Of a DNA stretch of 61,773 nt, positions 11,308-61,501 are shown in pieces. Position numbers and translations under genes: made by a program. Below the pieces are notes generated by a model. That model made no database searches, was not told the DNA's origin, and saw only the letters and a list, made by a program, of their open reading frames with translations. Source of the stretch: Dysgonomonadaceae bacterium PH5-43 (GTDB lineage: Bacteria > Bacteroidota > Bacteroidia > Bacteroidales > Azobacteroidaceae); the NCBI GenBank assembly GCA_029916745.1, contig JARXWK010000021.1, positions 1 through 61,773 of the forward strand. The letters run 5' to 3'. How positions within the stretch are numbered: the first letter of the stretch is position 1; each line of letters opens with the position of its first letter.

Positions 11308-11806
11308 CAAAGCTTCACTTAGGGGCTTCTCTCTACTAAGAGACCCCTTGACTCTCTACTAAGAGAGGAGAGGTCTCTCTACTAAGAACGGCGGGGTGTC
11401 TTAAGTATAAAGACGGGGAGGTTCTACTAAGAGCTGCATCGGGTCTCTAATAAGAAGCAGCTCGCCTATCTACTAAGAACGAACGGGGGTATCTAGTAAG
11501 AAACAACTCGCCTATCTACTAAGAGCGATGAGGGTGTTCTTCTAAGAAGCGGAGAGAGAGCTCTATTAAGGGCGACGAAGTGCTTCGCAAGAGAGATAGA
11601 GCCGTACATTTGTCCACTCGCTCACTTTTACGCTCTTCTCCGAGAGTTAAGCAATTACGGATAGTTGCCTATTGATGCGGTTTGCTTACTCTCTTGCCTC
11701 TTCTCTTAAATGACACAAAGGGTCGATAATATCAAAATAACATCAAAAATAGAAGTATTGCGAAAATAAGTAAGTCGAGAAAATGTCAAGAATTTGGGTG
11801 AAATAG
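11308..11806 (+). repeat. Copy A of 23-bp phased array element (full length)
   Basis: The element begins with CAAAGCTTCACTT. Units based on CTACTAAGAR start at 11333, 11356, 11379, (degenerate ~11401), 11424, 11447, 11470, 11493, 11516, 11539 and 11563, so the spacing is 23 bp with very little drift. Spacers alternate between types ending GGGTAT and CGCCTAT, giving a 46-bp super-repeat in the middle. All leading units have core ACTA. After about 11583 a non-array 3' half follows, which is shared with copy C up to about 11806. It has stops in every frame and no coding potential. It lies between the thrS promoter and the end of the C10 protease operon. Confidence 0.9.
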
Positions 11807-11912
11807 AAAAAAGAAAGATAAAGCTTTCGCCGAATAGTGACTAAAACCACACATTCTATATAGGAACTCAAACAGTTAAAGAGCCCAAAATATGGTTAAA
11901 GCTACCAGACAA

Positions 11913-12059
11913 TTACTCTCCCAACATTCTCTCCTGACGTGTAGGTTCAGGAGCTTGTTTTTCGTTTTCTTTATCACTACCCGAAGTTTTACTTCCTTTA
12001 CAAGCAAATATACCTACCGTAATAAATATAAAAACAAACAATTTACTTATAGTATTCAT
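11913..12059 (-). CDS. Tiny lipoprotein downstream of the C10 protease
   Basis: A 48-codon gene read from the ATG at 12059. A hydrophobic signal segment (FVFIFITVGIFAC) ends in a lipobox with Cys20, followed by a short polar tail rich in K, S, E, P and R. It starts 6 nt after the C10 protease stop, so it is probably co-transcribed. Some Bacteroides C10 proteases have lipoprotein inhibitors encoded next to them, but those are much longer. This 28-residue mature peptide is too short to be called an inhibitor, and its function is unknown. Confidence 0.7.
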   Translation of the reverse strand: MNTISKLFVFIFITVGIFACKGSKTSGSDKENEKQAPEPTRQERMLGE

Positions 12060-12065
12060 ATTCGA

Positions 12066-14600
12066 TTATTTTTTATAAAATTTCCCATTGTAAACTCCCG
12101 ACGGCATCTCTACTATTATCACATAAACACCTGTAGTTAGAGAGTTTACAGGTACTGAAACAACTCCAGAAGTATTGACATTTTTATCGATAAGTTTTTT
12201 ACCCGATACGTCGAACACACTTATCGAATTAATATAATCGTCTAACGAAACATACAAGATATCTTCTACAGGATTAGGGTATATGCTAATATTCTTGTCT
12301 TCTACTTCAACGGTTTCTATATCCAGCATTGGATCGGCATTATATTTTATACTTACGAAACAATTATCCTCTGGAGTAAACCAATACGCCTTAGATTTAA
12401 ATCTATCTTCATAGTAGACACCTATCTTCAAAATTCCATATTCTTTAGCCGGTGGATTAGTAAAATAAAGCACTGTGCTTTCCGACTTTTCCAAAGTAAT
12501 AGTTTGCACGTCAAACGATGAATAATTGGTTCCACTACCCACTGCCACATATATTTTGCCTGTATATTTATCTCCAAGATTTTTTATGGGCACTTTCAAC
12601 TTAAAAGTATTAGGCGTTACATCATCATTTCCCGAAGAAAAAGATATTGGAGCTGCCAACTGAAGACTTACTATTTTATTAGAAGTCAAAACAAATTTTG
12701 CCTTAATAGGATTCTCAGCATTTAGCACTTTAGAAGCCTCCTTAAAATTGTTTGTTTCATCATATAATAAGTACAAATCATAGTTAAAAGCTGTCTTTTT
12801 GCAACTACCCGAAATCAAAAACTCTTTTGTTTCGCCTGCTGCCAAAACAATAGGCACATCTTTAACAAACGTTTCCGCCCCCGATGTATCGTACGCTATA
12901 GAGATAAAAGAGTTATACTCCCCTCCTCCTGTATTTTTAAGAGTAAACTTCAAGTAATCTGTTTCAAGTTTATATATTTCTTGAACTTCCGAACTTGACA
13001 CAAATTCAAGCTTAGGAATATCCGTTGGCTCTGTAAATTTAATATTCAAAGAAGAAACTTCTACATTATAGTATCCTATAGCACCCGATTTCCCTGTTAC
13101 AATAGTCCAATCCGACTGATCTTTTGCTTTACAAACCACATACATTTTGTATTTTCCATCTGTAAGATTCGTTAATTTATCTGAGAATTCTAAACTTGTC
13201 CAACCGAAACCACTTGGCAAACCTTCAACGCTCTGAGACGCCATTGTTACAACCGTATTATTTGAACTCACAAAGCCTAATGCAACATGTCCGTAAAAAG
13301 AAGCAATACCATTATTTGTAAGAGTATTTGCCACTACACTTATAGAAGACATTCTGGTTGTTTCTTTAGCGGTGTTTAATTTTAGAGTTTCTAAGCCTAA
13401 CTGACTTACAGGAGTTGCACTTCCTTTATTTGGTTGAATACCTGTATATATTTGTTGTCCTCTGTTATAAGAACCGGCTCCTGCTCCTATACCCGAAGTT
13501 CCAGGAGACAAAGCCGACAACTCATAGTAACCATCGGCATATCCCGCCCAGCCCCAATTAAAATGGAATAGTCCGTTTTCGTCATAACCGTCACAAACAA
13601 AAGCGTGACCTGATTTATAGTCGTCGCTATACCCCGAATACAAAACAGGACGAGCAGCACTCAATTCTTTTTTAATAATATTTTCCCATTCTGATTTTGT
13701 AAGAGAATTTCTAACATACGATAAAATGTTTTTATCGTAATCGAAGTACGACACTAATGCTTTCATCATATTACTACCATACGCCCCACTTGTTGAACCG
13801 TAAGTTGTCTGAGCTGAAAAACTAACGTGATACATTAATTTGGCTATTTCCAAAGCCTGTTCGTTCGCTTTATCAATCGAAGGAGAATAAACATTAGCAA
13901 GCTGACTCCAGTCGTAAGTTGCATTTGCAAAGTTAATAGTCCTGTTACTTCCCGCTACTTCATAAGTTAACGAACCGTTACCTTTTTTAGGCCATTGATA
14001 ATACGACATTATTTGAGCACCAGCAACCGCCGTACACCCAACTACCGCCGTTGAACCATCAATCACAGGGCAAGAATTATTATATGGTGCGCCCTGATCC
14101 CATTTTGCTTTCACCAAAGGTTTAACATAATCAGCATAAGAACGTTCATCGACTCTTAAATCTACGGGGGCTTCCAGAGACACTTCCTCTCCTACCGCAT
14201 TTTCACATAGATAATCTAACTCTGTTTCATAAACAGACAACCAATATTTAAGGTTATCAGGAATTTCATTAATGTCAAATTTATTATTATCTGAATAAGC
14301 CAACACTTGTTTAGCTCTCTCATCGCCAGAAACAATAATAAACCCACTATTATCACCAATATTATAAACATAGTAATATGGTTTTTCTATTACCGTTGGA
14401 GTCGAACTATTTTTCATAGTTGGAGCATAAACAAGCTTAACAGTCTCCAACTTGCCGTCATTATCAGCTTTCAACGTTGTAATACTTTCACTAAAAAATG
14501 ATTTAGCAATATCTCTTGCTTCATTTTCTGTTCTTAACTGAGCCTTCACACTTATGCAGCTCAACAATAACACACTGATTAAAAAAAATAGATTCTTCAT
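12066..14600 (-). CDS. Secreted C10 (streptopain-like) cysteine protease with T9SS sorting domain
   Basis: 844 residues. A signal peptide (about 1-20) is followed by a Spi-type propeptide (about 25-140) and the C10 catalytic domain with Cys189 in VVGCTAVAGAQIM and His332 in SGHAFVCDGYD. FHFNWGWAGYADGYY follows, as in SpeB and interpain. After about residue 385 there are beta-rich repeats, and the last ~75 residues form a type A T9SS C-terminal sorting domain (ISIYPNPVEDILYVS ... GVYVIIVE). The protein is predicted to cross the outer membrane by T9SS and be cell-surface attached or released. It lies 4 nt after the TPR gene in the exopolysaccharide run. The substrate is unknown. Confidence 0.92.
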   Translation of the reverse strand: MKNLFFLISVLLLSCISVKAQLRTENEARDIAKSFFSESITTLKADNDGKLETVKLVYAPTMKNSSTPTVIEKPYYYVYNIGDNSGFIIVSGDERAKQVLAYSDNNKFDINEIPDNLKYWLSVYETELDYLCENAVGEEVSLEAPVDLRVDERSYADYVKPLVKAKWDQGAPYNNSCPVIDGSTAVVGCTAVAGAQIMSYYQWPKKGNGSLTYEVAGSNRTINFANATYDWSQLANVYSPSIDKANEQALEIAKLMYHVSFSAQTTYGSTSGAYGSNMMKALVSYFDYDKNILSYVRNSLTKSEWENIIKKELSAARPVLYSGYSDDYKSGHAFVCDGYDENGLFHFNWGWAGYADGYYELSALSPGTSGIGAGAGSYNRGQQIYTGIQPNKGSATPVSQLGLETLKLNTAKETTRMSSISVVANTLTNNGIASFYGHVALGFVSSNNTVVTMASQSVEGLPSGFGWTSLEFSDKLTNLTDGKYKMYVVCKAKDQSDWTIVTGKSGAIGYYNVEVSSLNIKFTEPTDIPKLEFVSSSEVQEIYKLETDYLKFTLKNTGGGEYNSFISIAYDTSGAETFVKDVPIVLAAGETKEFLISGSCKKTAFNYDLYLLYDETNNFKEASKVLNAENPIKAKFVLTSNKIVSLQLAAPISFSSGNDDVTPNTFKLKVPIKNLGDKYTGKIYVAVGSGTNYSSFDVQTITLEKSESTVLYFTNPPAKEYGILKIGVYYEDRFKSKAYWFTPEDNCFVSIKYNADPMLDIETVEVEDKNISIYPNPVEDILYVSLDDYINSISVFDVSGKKLIDKNVNTSGVVSVPVNSLTTGVYVIIVEMPSGVYNGKFYKK

Positions 14601-14604
14601 TGTA

Positions 14605-16701
14605 TTAATTATTTGTCATTTTCTTTATTATACTGTAAGCACTTGCCAAACCCAACTCTCCTGCCTTACTTAAATCCTTAATACCTTTATCTATATTCCC
14701 CATAGATAAATACAACAATCCTCTATTGAAGTAACATTCAGCAAAGTCTGGATTAATTGTTATTGCCTTATTATAATCTTCTAAAGCTGATATATAATCT
14801 TTCTGAATAAATTTTATGTTTCCTCTATTAAAGTAGGCGTAAATAAATTCAGGGTTAAGTTTTAACACTATATTGTAATCATTTATGATAAGATTAAGTT
14901 CGTAAACAACCTTATCATCTTTACTTTGTTTTATATCTTCATTGAACTTAGATGTACTTTTTTTGTTTGTTGTCTCAAAATACACTGAGCCTCCTGTTAT
15001 ATTTCCATCATAATTATTTATTTCCAATTGTTTATAGCGAACGGCGGCTCTATTAAAGTAAGCCAATTCGAATTCAGGATTAAGAGAGATAGCTCTATTA
15101 AGATCGTTAATAGCCTCAGACAGGTCGTGCACTAACATAAAATCTATAGCTCTTCCAAATACAGAGTTAGCATCTAAAGGATTTCTATCTATTGCAAGAG
15201 AATGATTATCTATGGATTGAAAATGGTATGCCACCTGAGTATCAGTTAATGGTTCTTCACGATTAACAACCTTAAGTTGCAAAGGCAATACTTTTTTGTT
15301 ATTAAATTCAGATATAGTTTTATCTTTATTAGATGTGTATTTGTTAATTTCGTCAACCTTTTCGTAATATGTTATTAAGAATTGAGGTTCCAAATCAACT
15401 TTAACTTGTTTGTCTTGCACTCGTCCTCGTATTTCACTGTCATATTTTGATTTTATTTCCTCCTCTTTATCATAAATGACCAACTTCTTAAACTTGGCTA
15501 TATTTTTATCAGAGCTTTCGCGGACTTTATCTTCTTCAGATGCTTCATATTCATTTATATCCAAAACCTCTTTACCTGTTACTATCTTTCCTTGTTCTCT
15601 TTGTTTTCTTAAATCTTGTTCTAAATCATACGCAAACCAATAATCCTTATCGGCTCCCTTTATGTCATTAAGCTTTCGTTTAACTTCCGATCTGAAATAA
15701 TATGCCGGCACGAAGTTAGGATATTCCTCTATTATAACATTTAGATCTTTAATCGCATCTGTATTATTGTTAGTTTCTTGATTTAGGAAAGCTCTATTGT
15801 ATATAGCTTGAAAATTATCTGGCTCTAACTCTACAATCTTATTAAAATCATCTAATGCACCATACACATCTCCGACCTGCGAACGAAGTAAACCTCGATT
15901 AAAACGAGCTATTAAATTATTAGGTTCTAAATCGACAACAATATCGTAATCCGACATAGCCCCTCGTAAATCATTATTATAAAAACGAGCTAAACCTCTA
16001 TTGATATGATAACCTGCCTTATTTGTTTCGTAATATATTGCCTGATCAAAATCTCTCAAAGATTCTTCATACTTTTCAGAATGCAGATACAGTAAACCTC
16101 GTTGAGCGTATAGGGGAGCATAATATTTATCTAACTCTAATGCTGTGTCGTAATCCTTAAGTGCAGCAACAGTATCGCCCTTCTCTACATTAATCATTCC
16201 TCGAGTAAAGTAGGCCTGCATATACTTAGAGTGATAGTTTATTAGTGTTTTTATGGTTTGTAATGCGTTGTCATAATCTTCCATTTGAGCATAAGCTATT
16301 GCTTTATTCAAGAGCATATATTTATCTTCAGGACGAGACTCTAATCCTTTGTCATAATCTTCTATCGCTCCTTGATAATTCTTCAGACTTTGTCGCGCAG
16401 CTCCTCTATATTGATAAGCATATACATAAAAAGGGTTTATTCCCAAACATACTGTAAGGTCATTTTCGGCACCACTGTAATCATCTAAATAGAATTTAGC
16501 CATAGCCCTGTATAAGTAAGGCTCTGCTAAGTATGGTTTTGATTTTATAACTTGATTGAAGTATTGAATAGAAAGCACATAATCTTCGAAATACAAGGCA
16601 TTTTTACCTATAGCAATCACTCTATTAGTGTTTACTTGTGCTGTTACTGGTACTAACACCGAAGTTAGTAAAACGAAGATTAGTGTTTTGAATATCTTCA
16701 T
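14605..16701 (-). CDS. Secreted/periplasmic TPR-repeat protein
   Basis: 698 residues with an N-terminal signal peptide (MKIFKTLIFVLLTSVLVPVTAQ) and about 9-10 TPR units in the first 390 residues (for example AEPYLYRAMAKFYLDDYSGA). A charged linker without TPRs lies at about 390-500, and three to four more TPRs are near the C-terminus. In Bacteroides a TPR protein of similar size lies between def and thrS, as I recall, so this is probably its orthologue in a disrupted neighbourhood. TPR arrays bind protein partners. Involvement in exopolysaccharide assembly is suggested only by the operon. Confidence 0.88.
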   Translation of the reverse strand: MKIFKTLIFVLLTSVLVPVTAQVNTNRVIAIGKNALYFEDYVLSIQYFNQVIKSKPYLAEPYLYRAMAKFYLDDYSGAENDLTVCLGINPFYVYAYQYRGAARQSLKNYQGAIEDYDKGLESRPEDKYMLLNKAIAYAQMEDYDNALQTIKTLINYHSKYMQAYFTRGMINVEKGDTVAALKDYDTALELDKYYAPLYAQRGLLYLHSEKYEESLRDFDQAIYYETNKAGYHINRGLARFYNNDLRGAMSDYDIVVDLEPNNLIARFNRGLLRSQVGDVYGALDDFNKIVELEPDNFQAIYNRAFLNQETNNNTDAIKDLNVIIEEYPNFVPAYYFRSEVKRKLNDIKGADKDYWFAYDLEQDLRKQREQGKIVTGKEVLDINEYEASEEDKVRESSDKNIAKFKKLVIYDKEEEIKSKYDSEIRGRVQDKQVKVDLEPQFLITYYEKVDEINKYTSNKDKTISEFNNKKVLPLQLKVVNREEPLTDTQVAYHFQSIDNHSLAIDRNPLDANSVFGRAIDFMLVHDLSEAINDLNRAISLNPEFELAYFNRAAVRYKQLEINNYDGNITGGSVYFETTNKKSTSKFNEDIKQSKDDKVVYELNLIINDYNIVLKLNPEFIYAYFNRGNIKFIQKDYISALEDYNKAITINPDFAECYFNRGLLYLSMGNIDKGIKDLSKAGELGLASAYSIIKKMTNN

Positions 16702-16727
16702 AAAAAAGACATAGTTACTTTATAATA

Positions 16728-19091
16728 CTATTCCTCATGATAATACGAATTATGTTTTAGATAATAAGAGCTTTTACCATAATATCTCTTCATTCCGTAA
16801 TAACCATCTTTTATATTAACATCATTATAAACAACAGCAATATTCTCGACATTATCTTCTTTCAATTCTTTTATAGTATACTTCAAGAAGTTTCTATTTG
16901 TTTTTTGATTTCTCACAACAAAAAGAAGCACATCTACAAGTTTAGCTAAATAATGAGCATCAGACACTAAACCTACAGGGCTACAGTCTAAGATTACATA
17001 GTCGTATCTTTCCAACAGAGTATTTATTAACTCTTTAGTTTTATCTGTCCTTACAAGCTCACTCGGATTAGGAGGAATAACTCCTGCAGGTAAAATATCA
17101 AAATTATATTCTTCTGAATGAACTATAATATCATCTAAATCCACTTGCCCAATAAGATAATTAGAAACCCCTTTATTCTTATCTACACCTAACGAACGAG
17201 AAAGAGCAGGACGACGTAAGTCAAAGTCAACAACAACTGTTCGAGCATTGCTTATCTCATAGATTGAAGCCATATTCAAGGCTATAAAAGTCTTACCATC
17301 TTGAGGCTCAGTAGATGTAAGTAGCATTGATATTGGCTTTTCTTTCTGAGCTATATATTCCATTCTTGAACGCAAATTTCTAAATCCTTCAGTAAAACTT
17401 GAACGAGGGAAATGCTTAACAACAATTTCTTCTTTCTTTTTAGACTTCTCTATAGTTCCTATAATCGGTAATTGAGTTATTTTCTCTACTTCTTCTCTCG
17501 ATTGAACCGAATACTTAAACAATAACTCTTTGCATATTATATACACTAAAGGTATAAGGAAGCCTATAAGAAGATAAAATACATAAACAGATTGTCTATC
17601 TCCAGCATTAGTAACACCAATAAGTCTAGGGTTATCAATTACCAGATTATCTGCAGTATTCGATGCCTTTTGTATTTGACTTTCCGTTCTCTTTTGCAAC
17701 AAATAGTTATGATAGGTTTCATTAATTTGATATTTCTTCTCCCTAGTCATTAATTCTCGTTCTTGTTTTGGACGATTTTTTAATTCCGCATAAACTTTAT
17801 TATATCTACCATTAACATCTTTTGCTTCCAAGTCTATTGTAGATTCCAGAGTCCTCAATAAATTTTTTATATTTCCTTTAACCTCCGCTATTCTTGTCTT
17901 ATTCTTTGAATATCTGGGATTACTCTCACCTAATAGATTCATTTCTCTTACAAGCATATTATACTCTGTTATAAAAGCTACAAGTGGAGGACTTGACACA
18001 TTAAAAGCCGTAGGATCAGCAGTTATTTCTCCGTCAGAAGTATCTAACGATTTAGACAAAGACGATAGATGTTTACGACGTAATTCGAGTTGACTAATTT
18101 GATTTGCCAAATCCTGTAAAGATTTATTCTTACTTGTCGATTCGTCTTGAGTGGAATATAAACCAGTGGAAGCCTGAAATGAATTAAGAGCCGAACCTGA
18201 CGAATCAATTGAATCTTGCATTATTGATATTTGTTCAGCTAAAAAATCTATAGACTGTTCAGCTGTAGTATTTTTACGCTCTAAATTTTCCTCAAAAAAT
18301 TTATTGTTTAATATATTTAAGAAATCTAAATCACGTTCTGCAACTTTGCCCACAACAGCTATTTCAATAACAGAAGCTCCCTCCATTATTATTTTAGAAG
18401 ACATACTCCCTCTATAAAGATTCACTAATTGATTTTTAGATATAAATCTAAAATGGTATTCATAAGTAGGATAAACAAAAAAGTTTGTTTTACTTATAGT
18501 GGCATAGAATAAAGCATGTTGTATTTCTTCGTCATACTTACCATTCAAGGCAAACGGTTGAATATAATCATTGCCCATAAATGACACTTCATAATTTTCT
18601 TCATCTATTCCTTTTATCTTAAATTCTAAGCCATAAGCATTAGATGCTATATAATCCGTATTTATAGCTACTGGAGCATTTTTATAAAGAACTGTATTTT
18701 TGAATTTATGTTTAATATATATTTCATTAGTAATCTTCATTGAATCAACCACCCTCGAAATAAAATCATAGGATTGATACATTAACATTTGATTGTTAAA
18801 TGTTTTATTATTTGCACTCACCATTGAGTTATTCGCAAAATTTGTACCTAATCCATTTTTACTCGTTTCTATTAAAACTGTAGTAGTGGTTATATACGTT
18901 GGAGTCCAAGATTTATTTTTCACATAGGCTAATCCTAACGCTATAAACCCTGCTATAACAAACCAATACCAATACTTTGCTATACTAATTATGAGTGTAA
19001 CAATATCAAATGAGTTAGAACTAGTCTGATTAAATAATTGTTCAATAGACTGCTCTTCTGTATTTTTTTCTGTTTTATTTTTGATAGCCAT
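16728..19091 (-). CDS. Wzc-like polysaccharide co-polymerase with BY-kinase domain
   Basis: 787 residues. A Wzz domain lies between transmembrane segments near 39-57 and about 505-525, with coiled-coil in the periplasmic part. The cytoplasmic BY-kinase domain (about 560-787) has a Walker A-like TEPQDGKTF, A' motif VVVDFDLRRPALSR and Walker B YVILDCSPVG. A C-terminal tyrosine cluster (YYGMKRYYGKSSYYLKHNSY) provides autophosphorylation sites. Such proteins set chain length and drive export of exopolysaccharide together with Wza-like outer-membrane lipoproteins, two of which are encoded just upstream. No cognate low-molecular-weight phosphatase is seen in the window. Confidence 0.94.
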   Translation of the reverse strand: MAIKNKTEKNTEEQSIEQLFNQTSSNSFDIVTLIISIAKYWYWFVIAGFIALGLAYVKNKSWTPTYITTTTVLIETSKNGLGTNFANNSMVSANNKTFNNQMLMYQSYDFISRVVDSMKITNEIYIKHKFKNTVLYKNAPVAINTDYIASNAYGLEFKIKGIDEENYEVSFMGNDYIQPFALNGKYDEEIQHALFYATISKTNFFVYPTYEYHFRFISKNQLVNLYRGSMSSKIIMEGASVIEIAVVGKVAERDLDFLNILNNKFFEENLERKNTTAEQSIDFLAEQISIMQDSIDSSGSALNSFQASTGLYSTQDESTSKNKSLQDLANQISQLELRRKHLSSLSKSLDTSDGEITADPTAFNVSSPPLVAFITEYNMLVREMNLLGESNPRYSKNKTRIAEVKGNIKNLLRTLESTIDLEAKDVNGRYNKVYAELKNRPKQERELMTREKKYQINETYHNYLLQKRTESQIQKASNTADNLVIDNPRLIGVTNAGDRQSVYVFYLLIGFLIPLVYIICKELLFKYSVQSREEVEKITQLPIIGTIEKSKKKEEIVVKHFPRSSFTEGFRNLRSRMEYIAQKEKPISMLLTSTEPQDGKTFIALNMASIYEISNARTVVVDFDLRRPALSRSLGVDKNKGVSNYLIGQVDLDDIIVHSEEYNFDILPAGVIPPNPSELVRTDKTKELINTLLERYDYVILDCSPVGLVSDAHYLAKLVDVLLFVVRNQKTNRNFLKYTIKELKEDNVENIAVVYNDVNIKDGYYGMKRYYGKSSYYLKHNSYYHEE

Positions 19092-19101
19092 AAAAAATAT
19101 A

Positions 19102-19863: not shown

Positions 19864-19866
19864 TCA

Positions 19867-26951: not shown

Positions 26952-27196
26952 ATGCAAAGCTTCACTTAGGGTCGTCTCTCTTAGTAGAGACCCCTTGTCT
27001 CTCTACTGAGATAGGCGAGGTGTCTCTACTAAGAACGGCGGGGTGGTTCTACTGAGAGAGATTAGGCGGTTCTACTAAGAGAGACATCGGGTATCTCCTA
27101 AGAAGCAGCTCGCCTTTCTACTAAGAGCGACAGGGGGTATCTACTAAGAAGCAACTCCCCTATCTACTAACAACGACAAGGGGTTTCTTATAAGAA
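26952..27196 (+). repeat. Copy B of 23-bp phased array element (array half only)
   Basis: It opens with AATGCAAAGCTTCACTTAGG, then has ten units starting at 26978, 27003, 27026, 27049, 27072, 27095, 27118, 27141, 27164 and 27187. The spacing is 23 bp throughout except a 25-bp step between units 1 and 2, where the core switches from TAGT to ACTA. The 3' half seen in copies A and C is absent. The array runs directly into the A-run that serves the fhs terminator. It lies between convergent genes. The rest of 26835-26951 shows nothing recognisable. Confidence 0.9.
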
Positions 27197-34815: not shown

Positions 34816-35051
34816 AAGAACTAAGAGTGAAGAACTAAGAATTGCGACAAGCGCGGCAAATCGCAATGCGGCACTATACATCAACAACCGTAGGCAACGC
34901 TTCGCTCGCCATACGGCTATGAAACTGCTACCCTTTGGGTAGGCGGTAGCCCGAATGGGCTATACACCCATAACCTTAGGTGAGCGTAGCGTTACCTAAG
35001 GAGATAAGGTGTCGCTTCGCGCCAGTTCTTAGTTCTTCACTCTTAGTTCTT
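34816..35051. repeat. 236-bp element: 26-bp perfect inverted repeat enclosing five hairpins
   Basis: Bases 34816-34841 are the exact reverse complement of 35026-35051. Both consist of reiterated GAACTAAGA / TCTTAGTTC units. The 184-bp interior holds successive hairpins: ATTGCG/CGCAAT (34841-34867), CCGTAGGC with partner ending TACGG (34888-34916), CTACCC/GGGTAG (34928-34942), TAGCCC/GGGCTA (34947-34962) and CCTTAGGT/ACCTAAGG (34974-35001). The interior is much richer in GC than its surroundings. No open frame is present. It could be a non-autonomous mobile element or a multibranched RNA. Confidence 0.85.
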
Positions 35052-35059
35052 AGTTCTTA

Positions 35060-35189
35060 GTTTCATACTTTGAAACGATCCGTTTCTTGGTTTGATATAA
35101 TTCGTTTCTCAGTTTGAAACTACTTGTTTCATACGGGTGAAACACTTTGTTTCGTACTAATGAAACTACCTGTTTCATACGGGTGAAAC
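35060..35189. repeat. 22-23-bp array of short palindromes (GTTTC...GAAAC)
   Basis: Six units start at 35060, 35082, 35104, 35126, 35149 and 35172. Most have arms GTTTC and GAAAC around a 7-8-nt centre, with 5-nt linkers. Two units (35126 and 35172) are identical, with GTTTCATACGGGTGAAAC. The remaining intergenic DNA to 35436 includes a small hairpin AGTTGG/CCAACT (35223-35241) and otherwise nothing recognised. Confidence 0.85.
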
Positions 35190-35384
35190 AACAGGCAAGA
35201 AAGTTAAAAGCTAAAAACTAAAAGTTGGCACAAACCCAACTGGTAGTCGCCGTTTTTATGTATAGAAGTAAAAGATATGATAGATTGCAGCAGTGTAAGT
35301 GTAGTTGTTGTTTCTGTAGTCCCATCTACACAATAACCTGTTGTAAAACATAAATAAAAACATTAAAAAGACTTACAAAAAGAA

Positions 35385-50110: not shown

Positions 50111-50683
50111 CTAAGTTCTCATTCCTGGCATTAGCAGACTAATCAACCACTTAAGCAGGAATGGTGTAATCATTATTATAATACTCGTAATAGTTGTAAA
50201 CCTCACCCAATAGTCTTCTTCAATTTTCAGATAGTTAACTGCGCCTACCCATATTACATATATTGTGTATATAGATAATAATTGAAGAACAAACAACGAA
50301 GGAAACAAAGCTCCGAGCATTGCTATTGCATAAATAACCACCGACGAATAACCAACAAACTTTTCTGATAATACCTTATCCTTTTTTATTTCGAAACGAG
50401 GGAATACAAATTCTTTTATCAGAAACGAAGCTAAATAAAAACCTCCACCATAAATCATAACCTCTTTAAGAACAACCTTAAGAGCTAATTGCACATCAAA
50501 AGTTTTTTCTGATAGTAACACTCCTATAAACGACAACAAAGCTATTATCCCTATAATTGGAAATAAATATTCTTTGTAAAACTCTTCGCCGTTTTTATCT
50601 TTTTCTTTTTCAAGATTACCCCAAGCAGAAACAGGCTCTACTATGAGTTTATATAGCAGTATGAAAAGTTTTTTATACATCAA
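50111..50683 (-). CDS. Yip1-like multispan membrane protein
   Basis: 190 residues with about five transmembrane helices. [17 protein letters not shown] near the N-terminus and the helix pattern fit the Yip1 family common in Bacteroidetes near smpB/metH. The function is unknown. It overlaps the upstream lipoprotein by 4 nt. Confidence 0.72.
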
Positions 50684-51459
50684 TATCTTTTAAGTAATAA
50701 TTCCTCTGGTTTTCCGTCTTCACCAATTAGGTCTGTCCAGTTATAATTGCCAGTCTCCGCATCTTGAGAAGAGCAATATTTAAGATTTACATTTAGTTTT
50801 TTATACTTTGCACCAGTTGAAGCGATAGTTGTGTCTTCTCCCAAATCAAACAAATCTTCAAGATTAAACACATCTACTGAAGTTCCTCTATCTCTTTTAG
50901 GATAATTGGCATCGCCTACTTCGGCATACAAATAAAGTTTAACTGTGTCTGTTACATTTTCTTCTGGAACATACACCATATTATATTTAACTTTATCGTT
51001 ACTCATAACTTCATCTACTTCGGTAAACATAAAAATTCGTCCTAAATGATGAGTATAAAAACTATATTTAACCTCCGACAAAGGATAAGTGTTTTGAGTT
51101 GCCACAAGTGGGTCGAAACTTTTATTTTCCGAATAATTATGATTAGGCAATTCTGCTATAGAGTTAAACTCGGTAACACTCACATACTTATCTTGATATA
51201 GTTTATTATAATCAATTTTGAAAGAAGCTCCTATCCCTGTTCCTACTGCATAGGCTGAAAGTTGAGGTGCTATAATTTCTGAACATAATTTTCTATAACC
51301 ATCATAAAAATTCAGCGTAGGTAAATTCACCGTATTATCATAACCAACTACTGCTATACAATTAGAAAAATTATCGACATTCTCTCCTTCATCAGAACCT
51401 ATACACGATGTAAAAACTACACCAACACATAGGCTAAGAACCACAAACCACTTTTTCAT
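50680..51459 (-). CDS. Lipoprotein, possibly NigD-like
   Basis: 259 residues. The signal sequence ends in lipobox VFTSC with Cys19. The mature part is beta-rich (YDNTVNLPTLNFYDGYRK; VKLYLYAEVGDANYPKRD). The size and pattern are reminiscent of NigD-like proteins of Bacteroidetes, but I cannot confirm the family. It heads the run to metH and has a well-formed promoter at 51491-51521. Confidence 0.65.
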   Translation of the reverse strand: MKKWFVVLSLCVGVVFTSCIGSDEGENVDNFSNCIAVVGYDNTVNLPTLNFYDGYRKLCSEIIAPQLSAYAVGTGIGASFKIDYNKLYQDKYVSVTEFNSIAELPNHNYSENKSFDPLVATQNTYPLSEVKYSFYTHHLGRIFMFTEVDEVMSNDKVKYNMVYVPEENVTDTVKLYLYAEVGDANYPKRDRGTSVDVFNLEDLFDLGEDTTIASTGAKYKKLNVNLKYCSSQDAETGNYNWTDLIGEDGKPEELLLKRY

Positions 51460-51570: not shown

Positions 51571-52075
51571 CTATTTTACCCAAACAGAGTATAATTCTCG
51601 ACATTTTCCATACTTACTTATTTTTACAACACTGTTATTTTTTCTGTTATTTTGATATTATCGCCCCCTTGCTTAATTTAAGAGAGAAGGCAAGCGAGTA
51701 AGCAAACTACCCCCAATAGGCAACTATCTGTAATTCCTTAACTCTCGGAGAAGAGCGTAAAAGTGAGCGAGTGGACAAATGGACGGCTATATCTCTCTTG
51801 CGAAACACTTCGCCGCTTCCTAGGAGAAGCTCCTTATCATTGTTACTAAAGAGGCGAGCTGCTTCTTACAAGATACCCCTTATCGTTCTTATTAGATACT
51901 CCTCGCCTTTGTTAGTAGATAGGGAAGCTGCTTCTTAGTAGATACCCGATGTCGCTCTTAGTATAACGGTTTCGTCTTTATACTTAAGACACCCCGTCGT
52001 TCTTAGTAGAGACACCTCGCCTATCTACTAAGAGAGAGCAGGGGTCTCTACTAAGAGAGGAGGCATAAAGTGAAG
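51571..52075 (-). repeat. Copy C of 23-bp phased array element (full length, opposite orientation)
   Basis: Read on the minus strand, it opens with AAAGCTTCACTT (near 52075). Unit positions on the plus strand start at 52048, 52025, 52000, (degenerate ~51977), 51955, 51932, 51909, 51886, 51863, 51840 and 51817. The spacing is 23 bp except for a 25-bp step at the core switch between units 2 and 3. Units 1 and 2 carry the TAGT core and later ones ACTA. The non-array 3' half (about 51571-51800) matches copy A at roughly 80-90 percent by eye. It lies between the divergent lipoprotein and glsA promoters. Confidence 0.9.
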
Positions 52076-52228
52076 CTTTTATTTTGGCGCTTTATAAAGT
52101 GCTGTATTTGAGGTTGTTTATTCTAATCGGATAAGGCTCTAAATTGCCCGAAGCATCTAAGGCGAAACGATGTTAATCTCACAAAAAAGCTATCATTCGA
52201 CGAAAAACTTTCAGAGGATAGCGATAAT

Positions 52229-52257
52229 AAGAAACAAAACCATTATATTTGTTTCTT
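52229..52257 (+). promoter_or_regulatory. Palindrome overlapping the glsA -7 box
   Basis: Arms AAGAAACAAA (52229-52238) and TTTGTTTCTT (52248-52257) form a perfect 10-bp inverted repeat. The right arm overlaps TATATTTG (52244-52251), a -7 match 44 nt before glsA. It could be an operator or a 5'-end hairpin. A -33 TTG is not clear. Confidence 0.45.
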
Positions 52258-52295
52258 AATTAACGATAAGGCATAAAAACAACAGCACCAACTCT

Positions 52296-53117: not shown

Positions 53118-53135
53118 ACTAACTCTCCGTTTATT

Positions 53136-54146: not shown

Positions 54147-54155
54147 GGAATAAGA

Positions 54156-54629: not shown

Positions 54630-54636
54630 AAGAATA

Positions 54637-54676
54637 AAAAAAGGCAAACTATTAGCTTTTACACTAATGTTCGCCT
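54637..54676. terminator. rlmH terminator, possibly bidirectional
   Basis: AAAAAAAGGC at the left and GCCTTTTT at the right flank an imperfect stem (CTATTAG with CTAATG). It lies between convergent rlmH and the OmpA lipoprotein gene and has A/T runs on both sides. Confidence 0.7.
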
Positions 54677-54699
54677 TTTTATGCTTAACAGAAATATAA

Positions 54700-55380: not shown

Positions 55381-55412
55381 CTTTTTATTTATTAAATTAA
55401 TATATACCTACT

Positions 55413-55718
55413 TTAATCTTCAAAATCTAACGTTTCCGAATAAGCTTTTTCGGCAGTCAAGAATAAAGTTAACTCTTCTTTTGTGAAGTCTCCGATTTCG
55501 TCTTTAACCGTTTGCTCCGCAAGAAACTTAATTAATTCTTGCTCTTCTTTTTCATCGTCATCATCAGATAACCAGTTCTTATTTTCGTAGAAGTCGCAAA
55601 TAACATCTAACATATAGTAAATACTATCGTCATCGAACTTCTCTTTTAATTCTTGAGGTAGATAGTTTTGAATAAACTCTATCGCAGCCTCATCGTCGTA
55701 AATAAATTCGTCGCTCAT
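55413..55718 (-). CDS. Conserved acidic hypothetical protein
   Basis: 101 residues, strongly acidic (DDDDEKEEQE) and helical, with no signal peptide or recognised domain. It is co-directional with the DUF5606 gene (34-nt gap) and the OmpA lipoprotein. The function is unknown. Its codon use resembles its neighbours. Confidence 0.75.
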   Translation of the reverse strand: MSDEFIYDDEAAIEFIQNYLPQELKEKFDDDSIYYMLDVICDFYENKNWLSDDDDEKEEQELIKFLAEQTVKDEIGDFTKEELTLFLTAEKAYSETLDFED

Positions 55719-55752
55719 TATTTTTCTTTTTAACTATTTAAGATTATGAACA

Positions 55753-56181
55753 TTACGCGTCTTCAGACTCTACTACTTCTTCTGTTTCTTCTTCACTTAA
55801 AAAGTCGGTCAATCCTTCTTTAACTAAAAGGTTATACCAACCTATTACTTTTCTAATATCAGATGGATATACTCTATCTTTATCAAAATCAGGAAGTATA
55901 GTCTCAAAATAAGCCTTTAGTTCATCATTAGAAACTGATTTACCTAAATCTAATGGCTTAGAATCTTCCTTCTTTTTGATGCTATCTAAAACAAGTGCAA
56001 GAGCAACTTCTTCGTCTTCTGTATAGATTGAAATATCCCCTAACGAAACAACTTTATCTCTCATATAAACCGGGATTCTTTTTTTATCTATTAAAGACTC
56101 GGCTACAAACATATTTTTAGCTTTTGAAATTAATTTGAACAAACCGGGCTTTCCCGATACTGATAAAATGTCTTTTAACAT
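55753..56181 (-). CDS. DUF5606 family protein
   Basis: 142 residues. MLKDILSVSGKPGLFKLISK and VYPSDIRKVIGWYNLLVKEG are the recognisable conserved segments of this Bacteroidetes family. The C-terminal tail is acidic. A -7-like TATTTTTG on the minus strand (plus 56212-56219) precedes it, so it may start its own transcript. Function unknown. Confidence 0.82.
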   Translation of the reverse strand: MLKDILSVSGKPGLFKLISKAKNMFVAESLIDKKRIPVYMRDKVVSLGDISIYTEDEEVALALVLDSIKKKEDSKPLDLGKSVSNDELKAYFETILPDFDKDRVYPSDIRKVIGWYNLLVKEGLTDFLSEEETEEVVESEDA

Positions 56182-56225
56182 AATTCGATTTATTTATTAA
56201 AAATGAAACTGCAAAAATAAACAAT

Positions 56226-56810
56226 TTATTTGGAACTTAGCATCGAAAACACTTTTTCTACTTGAGGGATTAACGCCTGCGTTTCGTTGTTAAGCACAAT
56301 ATAATCTGCAAGCTTATTTCGCTCTTCCTCTCCTAACTGTTTATTTATCCGCCTCATCACATCTTCTACAGTTGTTTTATCTCTTTTCTGCACCCGTTGT
56401 ATTCTTAACTCTTGGGGTGCCGAAACTGCAATACTTATATCTATATATTTATATAAATCCGATTCAAATAATATAGCCGATTCTATTCCTACAAACTCTT
56501 TCGAGGCTAAGTTAGACTTCCATCTCTCAAAATCTTTGAATACTTCGGGGTGTATTAACGAGTTTACGTATTTAAGATTATCCTCATTATTAAATATAAG
56601 CGAAGCTAACTTTGCTTTATCTAACTTATCGTCTACATATAAATAAACACCAAAACGGTTAATAAGGTTTTGTTTTATAAACTCCGACGTTTCTGTTATT
56701 TTCTTTGCCTCTATATCTGAGTTATAAACAGGAATATCCATCGCACACAATATCTGAGACACAACCGACTTACCGCCGCCTATACCTCCCGTTATACCTA
56801 TAGTTGTCAT
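56226..56810 (-). CDS. coaE: Dephospho-CoA kinase
   Basis: 194 residues. The P-loop is GITGGIGGGKSVVSQ. DIEAKKITE, INRFGVYLY-type and RVQKRDKTT segments fit CoaE. It performs the last step of CoA synthesis. The ATG overlaps the ybbR-like stop by 4 nt. Confidence 0.96.
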   Translation of the reverse strand: MTTIGITGGIGGGKSVVSQILCAMDIPVYNSDIEAKKITETSEFIKQNLINRFGVYLYVDDKLDKAKLASLIFNNEDNLKYVNSLIHPEVFKDFERWKSNLASKEFVGIESAILFESDLYKYIDISIAVSAPQELRIQRVQKRDKTTVEDVMRRINKQLGEEERNKLADYIVLNNETQALIPQVEKVFSMLSSK

Positions 56811-57814
56811 AAAGCTTTTTGAAGATTGTTTTTTTCTATAAGAAACTCTATCGTTTCTGGCAAAAGTCGATAGCTAATAAGCCAATTCGGTTTTTTTGTT
56901 AAGCTAACAATTAAGTTTGGATTCAAACTATTTGCAATATCTTTATAGTCGACACTTATTTCTAAGTCTTCTTCTGTTAATTGCGAATACAAACTCAATG
57001 CTATCTGACAATTAACTTCAACTGTTGAAGGAAAGAAACGCACACTCACATCATCTGGCAGATTGTAAACTTTAACTGCAAGTTGAAATGTTTTTTCGGT
57101 ATATTCTTCTACCTTTGCTTTTATATTAATCCTATTTTCAGACAGATTAATTCTCGAAGGAGATAGTAAGTCTACATTAAAATCCAAATCTTTCCTTACA
57201 TTCTCTTGCAATATCTTTTTTGTATTTATATAAGCTATTGTGTCTAAATCTTTTTTATCGCCATAAGCCCACACTTTACACGGAGCAACCGCTATAGAAT
57301 CTACAAAAACATATCCAGAGGCTGGTGTTATTTTACCATTAATGCGAACTGGAATTTCTTTTTTAGTTAAAGGAGAATATTTAACAGAAATAACTTCTGG
57401 TCTAAAAGACAACAATCGTGTAAACGAACTTAAATTATCTACTATTGCAGCATTTACACTACTTCTACTTATGTTGTATAGAGTATCTGTTATAGGTAAA
57501 TTTGCTAAATCAGCATTTATCGACATTGAATTTTTATTCACCAAATACTTTATAAAAGCAGTTCCTTTATCCGATATTTTTATTATTATTTCTTGAGGAA
57601 GAGAATCTTTGAGAATTATCTCTTTAGGAGTATTTACATAGTTTATAGGTATGGCAATCTCTCTCTCTATTTCTTGTTGCAGGTATTGCATAACCCAGAA
57701 ACCAGAAGCGAGAATTACAAAAACAAAAAAGACCAAAAAATTCTTCCATGTTTCTCCATGAAAGAAAGCCTTGGCCTTTTTAGTAATTTCTTCTTTATTT
57801 ACTTGCTTGTTCAT
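56807..57814 (-). CDS. YbbR/CdaR-like domain protein
   Basis: About 335 residues. One N-terminal transmembrane helix (FLVFFVFVILASGFWVMQYL) precedes periplasmic YbbR-like repeats (KEIPVRINGKITPASGYVFV; VKVYNLPDDVSVRFFPSTVEV). The frame can extend to a TTG at 57826. I prefer the ATG at 57814 (MNKQVNKEE). It overlaps the yajC end out of frame. In Bacteroidetes the yajC-ybbR-coaE order is common. A link to cyclic-di-AMP synthesis, as for CdaR, is not supported by neighbours here. Confidence 0.85.
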   Translation of the reverse strand: MNKQVNKEEITKKAKAFFHGETWKNFLVFFVFVILASGFWVMQYLQQEIEREIAIPINYVNTPKEIILKDSLPQEIIIKISDKGTAFIKYLVNKNSMSINADLANLPITDTLYNISRSSVNAAIVDNLSSFTRLLSFRPEVISVKYSPLTKKEIPVRINGKITPASGYVFVDSIAVAPCKVWAYGDKKDLDTIAYINTKKILQENVRKDLDFNVDLLSPSRINLSENRINIKAKVEEYTEKTFQLAVKVYNLPDDVSVRFFPSTVEVNCQIALSLYSQLTEEDLEISVDYKDIANSLNPNLIVSLTKKPNWLISYRLLPETIEFLIEKNNLQKAL

Positions 57815-58112
57815 TAGGAGCCGCAAAAATAGAAGTTTTATCCATTTTCACTCTTACATTGTCCGCAATTTCAATTACGAAAGTTGTATCCTTAACTTCT
57901 TTAATTTTGCCGTGTATACCACCTGCTGTAACAATTTTATCGCCTACACCAAGAGCAGCTCTTTGCTTTTCTAACTCTTTCTTTTGTTTTTGTTGTGGAC
58001 GAATCATAAAAAAGTACATAATAGCAAAAAGAGCCACTATCATAATTAATCCGCTGTAAGGAGAACCTCCTGCTGCTGGAGCTTCAGCTTGTAATAAAAT
58101 ACTTAACATCAT
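57795..58112 (-). CDS. yajC: Preprotein translocase subunit YajC
   Basis: 105 residues. One membrane helix (GLIMIVALFAIMYFFMI) is followed by RPQQKQKKELEKQRAALGVG and DKIVTAGGIHGKI, the YajC signature. It is an accessory of SecDF. The ATG at 58112 gives a normal length. Confidence 0.95.
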   Translation of the reverse strand: MMLSILLQAEAPAAGGSPYSGLIMIVALFAIMYFFMIRPQQKQKKELEKQRAALGVGDKIVTAGGIHGKIKEVKDTTFVIEIADNVRVKMDKTSIFAAPNEQASK

Positions 58113-58167
58113 ATCTTCTTTTGTTTAGTTATTGAGTACAAATATACTTATTTAATTTAAAACTGTT

Positions 58168-59094
58168 TTAACTTTTGAATAAAACTCCTGTAGTTTTCAA
58201 TTCATTAACAATACTATCTAATATACCATTTATAAAATTGCTACTATTAGGCGTACTATAAAAATGAGCTAAATCTATGTATTCATTCAAAGAAACACTA
58301 ACAGGAATTGAGGGAAAGTTTTTAATTTCTGATAAAGCTGTCTGCATTATATACAAATCCATTTGAGCTATTCTATCTATATCCCAATTTTTTATTTGTT
58401 TATCTATCAAGTTTTGAGTTTCTTCGTGCTCAAGAATAGATTTATGCAACAAAGTTACAGCAAACTGCAAATCATCGTTGCTTTTATACATTGGGAGCAA
58501 CTCTTGCTCTTCGCCGTTTTCGCTATTAAAACTTTTAATAGTTTTCACAACAAACGTTGCCACTACGCCGAAATCACTATCCCAATAAATATCTTTATCT
58601 TGTAGTAAATCTTCGAGTTCTTCATTTTTAAGAATAATATTCTTGAAAATTTTTCTCCAGAACTCTTTGTCCGACTCATAAACATCTGGCGATTGTAAAT
58701 ATTCTTTGTAAATATCAGAACTTAAAATCTCTTTTAATAAGTTACGGAGCAAAAACATATCATCGTCCGACCACACACTTCCATTATTATTAATAAAAGA
58801 AACCAGCGTTTTATTTAATCTAAGCTGCTCGGCAAACTTATTGTCTATAAACCGAGTGTTGGGGTTTAACTCTTGTTCAGTAGGGAGGTATTTATATTTT
58901 AGAGCATCTAATCTTTTTTGCTCAACATCAGTAAGAACTACTATCAACTGAAGCAAGTACAAATATAAATCGTACGATCTCTGCAAACTCTTTATCAACT
59001 CCTTCTCTGCACTTTTTATATCTCCTGAACGTTTCAAATAGTAAGCATAAACTACCTGAAGAACTTTAATACGAATAAGAACACGATTAATCAT
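58168..59094 (-). CDS. nusB: Transcription antitermination factor NusB, long Bacteroidetes form
   Basis: 308 residues, about twice the E. coli protein. The C-terminal ~130 residues contain the NusB fold (DRIAQMDLYIMQTALSEIKN; VSVSLNEYIDLAHFYSTPNS). The N-terminal RVLIRIKVLQVVYAYY also looks NusB-like, with a helical insertion between. The extended form is typical of Bacteroidetes. A minus-strand TACCTTTG (plus 59125-59132) lies 30 nt upstream and heads the nusB-yajC-ybbR-coaE run. Confidence 0.92.
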   Translation of the reverse strand: MINRVLIRIKVLQVVYAYYLKRSGDIKSAEKELIKSLQRSYDLYLYLLQLIVVLTDVEQKRLDALKYKYLPTEQELNPNTRFIDNKFAEQLRLNKTLVSFINNNGSVWSDDDMFLLRNLLKEILSSDIYKEYLQSPDVYESDKEFWRKIFKNIILKNEELEDLLQDKDIYWDSDFGVVATFVVKTIKSFNSENGEEQELLPMYKSNDDLQFAVTLLHKSILEHEETQNLIDKQIKNWDIDRIAQMDLYIMQTALSEIKNFPSIPVSVSLNEYIDLAHFYSTPNSSNFINGILDSIVNELKTTGVLFKS

Positions 59095-59124
59095 TACTTA
59101 AATAACATCTTATTTATTTAGGCG

Positions 59125-59132
59125 CAAAGGTA
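59125..59132 (-). promoter_or_regulatory. Putative -7 box for nusB operon
   Basis: The minus strand reads TACCTTTG, 30 nt upstream of the nusB ATG. No clear -33 TTG at the right distance. Confidence 0.55.
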
Positions 59133-59267
59133 ATCTTTTTTTTGATTAAGTAACGCCACTAAGAACTTTTATGAATGCTAAATTTAATTTTAGCTCCGAA
59201 AATTTGTATAATTTAAGAACTATAACTAAATTTGTATAATTTGACAACTATACAATAACTTTATATC

Positions 59268-59624
59268 ATGGATAACACAAAAAGCTATTTCAAGAACGAC
59301 AAAAAAGAAAATGACATTCTTTTTTCTAAGTCTATAAACGCAGGAAAACGTATTTACTACTTAGATGTAAAACAAAATCGAAAAGGAGAGTTATTTTTGG
59401 TTGTTACTGAAAGTAAGAAAGTAAGCAAAGAAGACAATCCTAACGATGTGTTTTTCGAAAAGCACAAAATATTTCTATACAAAGAGGATTTCGATAAATT
59501 TACCGATGCCCTAACCAATGCAATAGACTATATTAAAGAAAACAACACGGTTGATTTTGTTCCAAGACAAGAAAACACAGACTTTTCCTTTGAAAATAAA
59601 ATAAACATTGACGATTTATTATAA
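59268..59624 (+). CDS. PUR-alpha-like (DUF3276) nucleic-acid-binding protein
   Basis: 118 residues of the PUR domain family (SINAGKRIYYLDVKQNRKGE; LFLVVTESKKV; KIFLYKEDFDKFTDALTNAI). Bacteroidetes and spirochaete members bind single-stranded DNA or RNA. It is monocistronic or shares a promoter with rplY. The upstream region has two TTTGTATAATTTG-type direct repeats (59203-59213 and 59230-59242), which may be promoter or operator elements. Confidence 0.9.
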   Translation: MDNTKSYFKNDKKENDILFSKSINAGKRIYYLDVKQNRKGELFLVVTESKKVSKEDNPNDVFFEKHKIFLYKEDFDKFTDALTNAIDYIKENNTVDFVPRQENTDFSFENKINIDDLL

Positions 59625-59641
59625 AAAAACAATTATCTTTG
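59608..59641 (+). promoter_or_regulatory. Promoter of rplY-pth-S4
   Basis: TTG (59608-59610) is followed, after 23 nt, by TATCTTTG (59634-59641), matching TAnnTTTG. It lies at the end of the PUR-alpha gene, leaving a ~75-nt leader before rplY. Confidence 0.6.
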
Positions 59642-59719
59642 CAGCCGCTTTTATAATTTCCGTGTGATGGGAGATTAAGAGCAATATCTTAATTTTGAGT
59701 AACACAAACAATTTAGAAA

Positions 59720-60295
59720 ATGAAAACATTTAATTTAGAAGGATCTCTAAGAGACCTAACAGGTAAAAAAGCTGCAAAAGCTTATCGTAAAGAATCATTA
59801 GTACCTTGCGTATTATACGGAGGTGAAACTGTTGTACACTTCTCTGTAGAAAAAGAAGGTATCCGTAAAATGATTTACTCTCCTGAAGTATTTATTACTA
59901 ATCTTACTATCGACGGTAAAACTTGTACTGCTATCCTTAAAGACGCTCAGTATCACCCAGTAACAGACGAATTACTTCACGCAGACTTTTTACAAATATT
60001 CGAAGACAAACCTGTGGTTTATGCTATACCTGTTGTTCTTGAAGGACTTGCAGAAGGTGTTAAAGCTGGGGGTAAACTTTCTCTTGAAATGAGAAAACTT
60101 AAAGTTAAAGGACTATACAAAAACTTCCCTGAAAAGTTAGTTATCAACATTACTAACTTAGGCTTAGGAAAAACAATCCAAGTAGGTGCTTTATCTTTCG
60201 ACAATTTAGAATTATTAAACGCTAAAGATAACGTTGTTGCAGCTGTTAAGCTTACTCGTGCTGCTCGTGGTGCTGCTGCAAAACAACAATCGTAA
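59720..60295 (+). CDS. rplY: 50S ribosomal protein L25, long (Ctc) form
   Basis: 191 residues. The N-terminal 5S rRNA-binding domain ([20 protein letters not shown]) and C-terminal TL5/Ctc beta domain are both present. The A/R-rich tail is normal. It starts about 78 nt after its promoter and is followed by pth at 5 nt. Confidence 0.95.
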
Positions 60296-60300
60296 TATTT

Positions 60301-60864
60301 ATGAAGTATTTAATTGCTGGCTTAGGAAACATAGGTCGGGAATACGAAAATACTCGCCATAATATAGGTTTTATGATATTGGACGCTTTAGCTAAAGCGT
60401 CCAATGTTGTTTTTACAGATAAACGTTATGGCGCTGTAGCCGAAATGAAAATCAAAAACAAACAGCTAATACTGCTTAAGCCTTCTACCTATATGAACTT
60501 AAGCGGAAATGCTGTTCGCTATTGGCTGCAAAAAGAAAACATTCCCGTAGAAAACCTATTAATATTAGTAGACGACATAGCTTTGCCGTTTGGCTCTTTG
60601 CGCCTAAAAACCAAAGGTAGCGATGCCGGACACAATGGATTAAAACACATTCAAGAAACTTTAGGGTCTTCGACTTATAGTCGTTTACGTTTTGGCATAG
60701 GTAACGACTACCCTACTGGCTGTCAGATAGATTATGTTTTGGGAGAATTCTCTGAAGAAGAACAAAAACTACTACCCGAAAGAATAAGCAAATCAAGCGA
60801 TATTATAAAAAGCTTTGCTCTTGCTGGCGCACAAATAACAATGAATCAGTACAATAAAAAATGA
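60301..60864 (+). CDS. pth: Peptidyl-tRNA hydrolase
   Basis: 187 residues. [19 protein letters not shown] contains the catalytic His. [15 protein letters not shown] and [14 protein letters not shown] are the other signatures. It recycles peptidyl-tRNA. The stop overlaps the S4-protein ATG by 4 nt. Confidence 0.97.
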
Positions 60865-61235
60865 ACGAAGCTCGCATCGACAAATGGCTATGGGCAACTC
60901 GCATCTTCAAAACAAGAAGTATTGCCGTTGAAGAATGCAAGAAAAACAGAGTGTTGATAAACAACACTGCCGTTAAGCCTTCGCGAATGATTAAAGTTGG
61001 CGACATTATAGATGTTAAGAAACCGCCAATAACATACAAATACAAAGTGCTTGCCCTCACCACAAATAGATTAGGCGCGAAATTAGTTCCAGAATATTTA
61101 GAAAACATTACCCCCGAAGAACAATACGAAATACTGGAACTTCAAAAAATCAATGGATTTATAAATAGAGCCAAAGGAACTGGCAGACCAACCAAGAAAG
61201 AACGCCGCGATTTAGACAGTTTTATCAACGAATAA
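60861..61235 (+). CDS. S4-domain RNA-binding protein (Hsp15-like)
   Basis: 124 residues. The S4 domain at the N-terminus ([39 protein letters not shown]) resembles Hsp15/YrfH. The C-terminal tail is basic ([19 protein letters not shown]). It probably acts on stalled 50S subunits, fitting its coupling to pth. Its TAA stop lies right at the start of repeat copy D. Confidence 0.88.
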
Positions 61236-61501
61236 TGCAAAGCTTCACTTAGGGTCGTCTCTCTTAGTAGAGACCCCTTGACTCTCTTAGTAGAGACCCG
61301 AGGTCTCTCTTAGTAGAAAGGCGAGCCCTCTCTACTATAAGAGATGAGGTGCTTTAAGTACAAAGACGATACCGTTCTACTAAGAGCGACAGGGGGTATC
61401 TAATAAGAGAGAACCCACCTCTATACTAACAACCACAAGGGGTATCTAATAAGAAACAACTCGCACTTATACTTACAACAACAAGACACTTATACCAAGA
61501 C
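61235..61501 (+). repeat. Copy D of 23-bp phased array element (array half only)
   Basis: It opens with AATGCAAAGCTTCACTTAGG immediately at the S4 gene stop. Units start at 61261, 61284, 61307, 61332, (degenerate ~61354), 61377, 61400, 61423, 61446, 61469 and 61492. The spacing is 23 bp except a 25-bp step at the core switch after unit 3. The first three units have the TAGT core. Units become more degenerate toward the right but keep phase. The 3' half of copies A and C is missing. Confidence 0.9.

Follow-up and report, generated by a model that had tools for sequence, protein, structure and literature searches.

The four arrays of 23-nt units studied here belong to a family which, in our judgement, is probably a dispersed non-coding minisatellite of BrickBuilt-like design, found in one species among the genomes searched. 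The window, that is, the whole stretch of 61,773 nucleotides analysed, is contig 21 of a 2.54-Mb genome in 46 contigs and carries the arrays named A to D. BrickBuilt is a minisatellite-bearing MITE of Porphyromonas gingivalis and P. gulae; for P. gingivalis ATCC 33277 its authors describe 19 intergenic copies with 23-nt units, a leader, a tail and IS5-type ends, and report that entire units are removed or added between strains (PMC4596501). The preliminary description of this DNA knew of no named element with this form; BrickBuilt, with its 23-nt units, leader, tail and intergenic sites, is such an element (PMC4596501).

The arrays and the segments attached to them are located in the window as follows.

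11309 to 11570, forward strand: array A, long form; leader (11309 to 11331) and about 10 units, unit 4 being the 22-nt form.
11571 to 11806, forward strand: conserved long-form tail following array A.
26956 to 27196, forward strand: array B; leader and about 10 units, the first inverted, without tail; it lies between the 3' ends of two ORFs.
51571 to 51822, reverse strand: conserved tail of array C, upstream of the ORF at 50680 to 51459 (no Pfam match).
51823 to 52079, reverse strand: array C, long form; diverged leader and about 10 units, the first two inverted and one of 22 nt.
61239 to 61501, forward strand: array D; leader and about 10 units, the first three inverted and one of 22 nt, without tail; it starts 4 bases past the stop codon of the ORF at 60861 to 61235.

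The arrays stand where the preliminary description had placed them. In the window we counted 40 occurrences of the core CTACTAAGAR (at most one mismatch); 100 shuffles gave 13.95 ± 3.91, with a maximum of 24. In A and C the units span only about 260 bp, and the remainder (to 11806 and down to 51571, respectively) is a separate conserved tail. The count of 10-11 units per array in the preliminary description comes to about 10 behind the leader in each of the four. Tandem Repeats Finder reports a period of 23, or its double of 46, for A, B and D, and gives no row for C.

The family extends far beyond the four copies first noted. A 26-nt leader pattern, allowing up to three substitutions, matches 84 places in the same genome, 37 of them exactly, and no place when the pattern is read backwards. 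Copy C, with its more diverged leader, was missed by this pattern and brings the analysed copies to 85, and a profile search based on the sequence of 17 copies gave three further places (C5:31169, C18:48560 and C14:76294). The total is at least 88 places, a lower bound, since contig ends truncate several copies and the profile search scored 85 of 1084 candidates in this genome. The arrays are non-coding, as had been claimed: if common start codons are allowed, ORFs that overlap B reach 43 amino acids at most and those that overlap A reach 42, and no ORF of at least 80 amino acids covers C or D. The claim that they lie only between genes also stands, none of the 85 copies being located inside an ORF of at least 240 nt as delimited by a simple ORF caller. 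Of the general traits of a MITE, the family shows many copies, a length of 50-1000 bp and an interior free of transposase (ORFs of at most 43 amino acids in A and B).

Each element is formed by a 23-nt leader, with a heterozygosity of 0.06 over 79 copies, followed mostly by 9-10 units of 23 nt and, in one form, by a tail of about 235 bp. All 85 copies have their first core exactly 23 nt from the start of the leader. This offset is due in part to how copies were selected, as the 26-nt pattern tolerates no indels and extends three bases into that core. Measured from core to core, the 85 copies contain 654 intervals, of which 596 are multiples of 23, whereas 51 fall one base short of a multiple. 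Of the 58 that are not multiples, 42 come from unit 4 in its 22-nt form (TCTTAAGTATAAAGACG / CTTTAAGTATAAAG type). One unit has 22 nt (TCTTAAGTATAAAGACG / CTTTAAGTA type) in A, C and D and in 43 of 83 scored copies, and the phase is constant thereafter. Thus the rigid 23-bp phase proposed beforehand holds for most intervals, but is broken by the 22-nt unit in A, C and D. Among the 34 copies of the long form, the number of units ranges from 6 to 11, with 10 the commonest (21 copies), and the array lengths cluster at 166, 213-214, 233-237, 257-261 and 282-287, that is, in 23-nt steps. The same unit types occur at the same ordinal position across copies, which suggests that the element was copied as a whole.

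The core had been assigned to every unit. It is indeed enriched, but the opening one to three units are often inverted (TCTTAGTAGA), as is true of B, C and D and not of A. The two orientations differ by the inversion of a central ACTA/TAGT between TCT and AGA, giving the near-palindromic forms TCT-ACTA-AGA and TCT-TAGT-AGA at one and the same position. Unit 1 is forward in 53, inverted in 23 and of another kind in 7 of 83 copies, and unit 3 is inverted in 7; flips are commoner in units 1 and 2. The flanks of unit 1 are palindromic (GTCTCT...AGAGAC), suggesting that inversion may proceed through a hairpin or a template switch. When one unit was taken from each of 11 array families, the per-unit palindromes gave a combined p = 0.007, and the single units, the main unit of this family among them, were mostly non-significant.

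BrickBuilt and the present family both have 23-nt tandem units without spacers, the units being imperfect; both have strictly intergenic sites and a narrow host range; and single copies of both are predicted to fold, as long stem-loops in BrickBuilt. Gain and loss of entire units is common to the two, and shows here in the 23-nt length steps of the 34 long copies, all from one genome. The family described here differs from BrickBuilt in its unit types, which recur at the same ordinal position, in its two core orientations and in its places, at least 88 compared with 19. BrickBuilt has leader and tail, whereas here the leader is present in all copies by the way they were selected and the tail in only 34 of 85.

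Such matching of unit length, leader, tail in one form, intergenic sites and whole-unit changes, together with six PF01609 transposase matches in the genome, might indicate that the arrays belong to the BrickBuilt/IS5-type MITE family itself and are moved by an IS5-type transposase. We consider this very improbable. The BrickBuilt end GAGACCTTTGCA (IS5-type, GAGACC...; up to two mismatches) is found at both ends of 0 of the 85 copies, at the left end of 1 and at the right end of 2. The same end gave 65 matches in one single-contig genome, presumably that of P. gingivalis ATCC 33277, in which 20 stretches included one 23-nt array of 18.9 copies without indels and two more with related arrays; the BrickBuilt 23-nt units showed 0% indels in these three stretches. 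The 18.9-copy array is bounded by both ends listed for BrickBuilt_5 (PMC4596501), and an end sequence adapted from the paper's table matched 98 stretches in the contig collection. The units themselves are unrelated, five of them matching the BrickBuilt unit at 9-12 of 23 positions, no better than shuffles (P 0.18-0.99). Furthermore, no terminal inverted repeats were found in those 15 copies, out of 85, whose right end can be recognised (mean score 13.7 vs 14.7 shuffled), which argues against membership and leaves transposition hypothetical. The outer borders of the copies are not sharp. The family would thus work like BrickBuilt as a dispersed minisatellite without being a member of it on the features compared.

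Two other kinds of repeat deserve comparison. BOX elements of Streptococcus pneumoniae are modular intergenic repeats with a variable number of an internal unit; judged by description only, they differ from this family in belonging to another phylum and in having a longer unit. Dispersed heptamer tandem repeats such as TAACTGA, short intergenic repeats of fixed period reported from some Bacteroidetes, have a 7-nt period and neither leader nor tail, unlike the elements described here (PMC4679880). Heptamer blocks that differ in sequence from this example adjoin 36 of 83 arrays. Among the open-access papers listed on BrickBuilt, on minisatellites and MITEs, on 23-bp intergenic tandem repeats of Bacteroidetes and on 22/23-nt repeats, none described this element in its title or at the start of its abstract.

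The preliminary description had attributed the regular spacing to selection. Small indels are indeed rarer in the array than in the tail: with the 22-nt form of unit 4 set aside, the 18,843 array bases of the 85 copies hold 16 off-phase intervals, and the 7,234 tail bases of 34 copies hold 17 indel events (Fisher p = 0.005). Not all of these events are independent; four 24-nt intervals at one place and four further 22-nt intervals at unit 4 look shared, and the same may be true of events in the tail. By substitutions, the long copies diverge from one another to a similar degree in the two parts (0.152 in the array, 0.147 in the tail). Counted in pairwise alignments the result was reversed, with 10.6 gap openings per kb in the array and 7.6 in the tail, and 216 of the 1386 array gaps measured exactly 23 nt; this count was discounted, since alignments of this kind are bound to acquire gaps where units have been lost or exchanged. 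Thus, the lower indel rate stands on the side of selection, whereas the opposite pairwise count and the common gain and loss of whole units weaken that claim. We regard constraint on spacing as having modest support. In-register exchange could yield the same low-indel pattern; on the other hand, a purely neutral element would not require a lower small-indel rate in the array.

A further reading of the spacing is that the units are phased DNA sites 23 bp apart for a putative nucleoid, segregation or regulatory protein, with the core as the site, whose orientation may flip; dispersed arrays of this kind would organise the chromosome or insulate genes. The rarity of small indels, the lower mean heterozygosity of cores than of spacers (0.149 vs 0.309), the position of the core, which is kept through in-place flips, and the recurrence of 22-23-nt periods in unrelated arrays of this genome and order are all consistent with binding sites. 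However, 23 bp corresponds to 2.19 helical turns, so that the sites would share no common face, the number of units varies (6 to 11 in the long form), and there is no match in the other genomes searched. In units 1 and 2, owing to the flips, the core is about as variable as the spacer, and off-phase copies could equally be removed by in-register exchange. We therefore hold a binding array to be unlikely.

Evidence on exchange was obtained from association tests over 83 copies, the two copies under 200 nt being dropped. Flipping of unit 1 showed no association with unit 3, unit 4, the left flank or the form (permutation p 0.48-0.87), and a weak one with unit 2 (p = 0.05 and 0.06). In unit 2 the flip is linked with its own spacer (p = 0.001), and the form of unit 4 is associated both with the long or short form of the element (p = 0.002) and with the spacer of unit 2 (p = 0.020), indicating that exchange is incomplete. 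Mostly, neighbouring unit alleles are weakly associated. The copies would be mosaics at the scale of one or two units, generated by conversion or recombination among dispersed copies, and recurrent flipping by mutation may be a partial alternative to exchange in accounting for this mosaic.

The tail lies behind 34 of the 85 copies and was not seen in 51, the latter being called short when it is absent within 520 nt; seven of these short copies lie less than 520 nt from a contig end. The left flank is one of several modules, all joining at the same base; in 83 copies these are heptamer repeats (36), TATAAAG-type sequences (6) and others (41). The form, long or short, is associated with the left flank (p = 0.001), and mixed combinations exist. 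In the window, heptamer tandem repeats of TTTTAGT / AGTTCTT types are located at 11266-11299 and 35024-35062. A GATA tetranucleotide repeat of 22 copies (61535-61622) is right behind array D, and a GATA run also follows copy L089. From about 61675 to the contig end runs the start of a repeat ACGTGAGTTCGATATAAG, found likewise near contig ends by copies L123 and L140, which resembles the end listed for MITE239 of P. gingivalis and is perhaps an insertion sequence at an assembly break.

In 22 of 33 long copies, the gene to the right has the same direction as the element. Between the tail and the start codon of this gene the motif TAnnTTTG, which we take to be the Bacteroidetes -7 consensus, occurs in 18 of the 22 (3.1 expected from shuffles), and it occurs within the tail in none of them; the promoter-like motif thus stays intact behind the tail. 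Pfam searches on 10 of the 22 co-directed genes matched nine, namely Phe-tRNA synthetase beta, PdxA, flavoprotein, trigger factor, phosphofructokinase, ATP synthase alpha/beta, PfkB kinase, dTDP-sugar epimerase and trypsin-PDZ protease, among which no common pathway is apparent. Relative to a small baseline of 34 element-free intergenic regions, the divergent bias of the long copies is not significant (p = 0.45). The arrays may influence adjacent genes.

The orientation of neighbours also bears on the idea of a transcribed element acting at the RNA level, whose successive hairpins would terminate or stabilise transcripts, chiefly between convergent genes. Of the short copies, 31 of 43 have a right neighbour that points at the element, compared with 11 of 33 long copies (Fisher p = 0.001). 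The single copy B gives a better fold than its shuffles do on each of the two strands (z -3.5 and -4.0), immediately to its right the minus strand carries a terminator-like hairpin, and by eye some short copies end in an inverted repeat. Yet convergent placement of the short copies is not significantly above the baseline of 34 element-free intergenic regions, a small sample (18/41 vs 9/34, p = 0.15). Across copies, the unit hairpin has no clear covariation, with 796, 650 and 808 paired against 796.7, 630.6 and 805.5 expected over 839 units (units with more than 4 mismatches being omitted), and the consensus fold is weak (-2.9 and -4.5 kcal/mol over 79 copies, the fold and the heterozygosity both omitting 6 of the 85). 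Rfam gave no match to the arrays and only a tRNA in the window. A role as RNA is distinctly unlikely in our view, and the chain of small hairpins suggested in the preliminary description is not borne out by the covariation or by the consensus fold. The tail was considered separately as a structured RNA and was not convincing, with z -2.3 on the plus strand (60 column shuffles), 5 compensatory against 53 broken cells, and z -1.0 on the minus strand.

The family has a narrow distribution in the genomes searched. A DNA search found it in 0 of 392 other genomes of the order (393 with its own; at most two candidates scored per genome) and, among 58 genomes of relatives, in its own genome only; a profile search found it in 0 of 37 other genomes of the genus (38 with its own). 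Of these 38, 10 reach a completeness of 90% or more with contamination no higher than 5%. The genus includes two near-complete genomes, in 7 and 5 contigs, that measure 1.0-1.2 Mb. Occurrence in this genome only, which the preliminary description had regarded as counting against its proposal, is what was found among the 58 relatives, the 393 genomes of the order and the 38 of the genus. Carriage by a virus was rejected: the sole viral match covers the first 16 nt of the leader, is not followed by an array and is coincidental.

The period of 22-23 nt is more widespread than the family. A second, unrelated array at about 35062-35190 has 22-23-nt units with GTTTCAT...TGAAAC palindromes and lies next to a heptamer block; about 36 places in the genome match its array part (among the best 40 of 151 candidates), and of the 12 that were read some are beside heptamer blocks. 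Other short 22- and 23-nt arrays are present in the genome we take to be that of P. gingivalis. In 671 kb of other, mostly Bacteroidetes DNA, a small and non-random sample, 5 of 22 non-redundant arrays (period 12-60, at least 2.5 copies) have a period of 22 or 23 and 4 of 22 a period of 21. In samples of 37 kb and 120 kb from two relatives, a single 22-nt row turned up in each and a 23-nt row in neither; in one of these relatives rows of period 7 and its multiples are frequent, with heptamers other than those found here. Motivated by the two families of this genome, by BrickBuilt with the short P. gingivalis arrays and by the few arrays of other Bacteroidales, one may ask whether the Bacteroidales keep several unrelated dispersed intergenic array families with a common 22-23-nt period, which one machinery builds or reads, for instance a DNA-binding protein spreading along sites 23 bp apart. 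We find such a common machinery quite unlikely.

Returning to the BrickBuilt-like minisatellite, we propose that the element spread to at least 88 intergenic places by some mobile or copying process, and that its copies would swap units in register through recombination or gene conversion. Unit exchange, rather than recurrent mutation, would build the mosaic, with entire units gained or lost and the near-palindromic core flipping in place. In this mechanism the register would be maintained mainly by homology-dependent exchange, and a weaker constraint may also act on the spacing.

The design known from BrickBuilt thus recurs in a different family of this order, where its sequence is unrelated and its copies are several times as many. 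Furthermore, 85 copies from a single genome make the origin of the 23-nt period testable, be it selection, register-keeping exchange or a binding protein.
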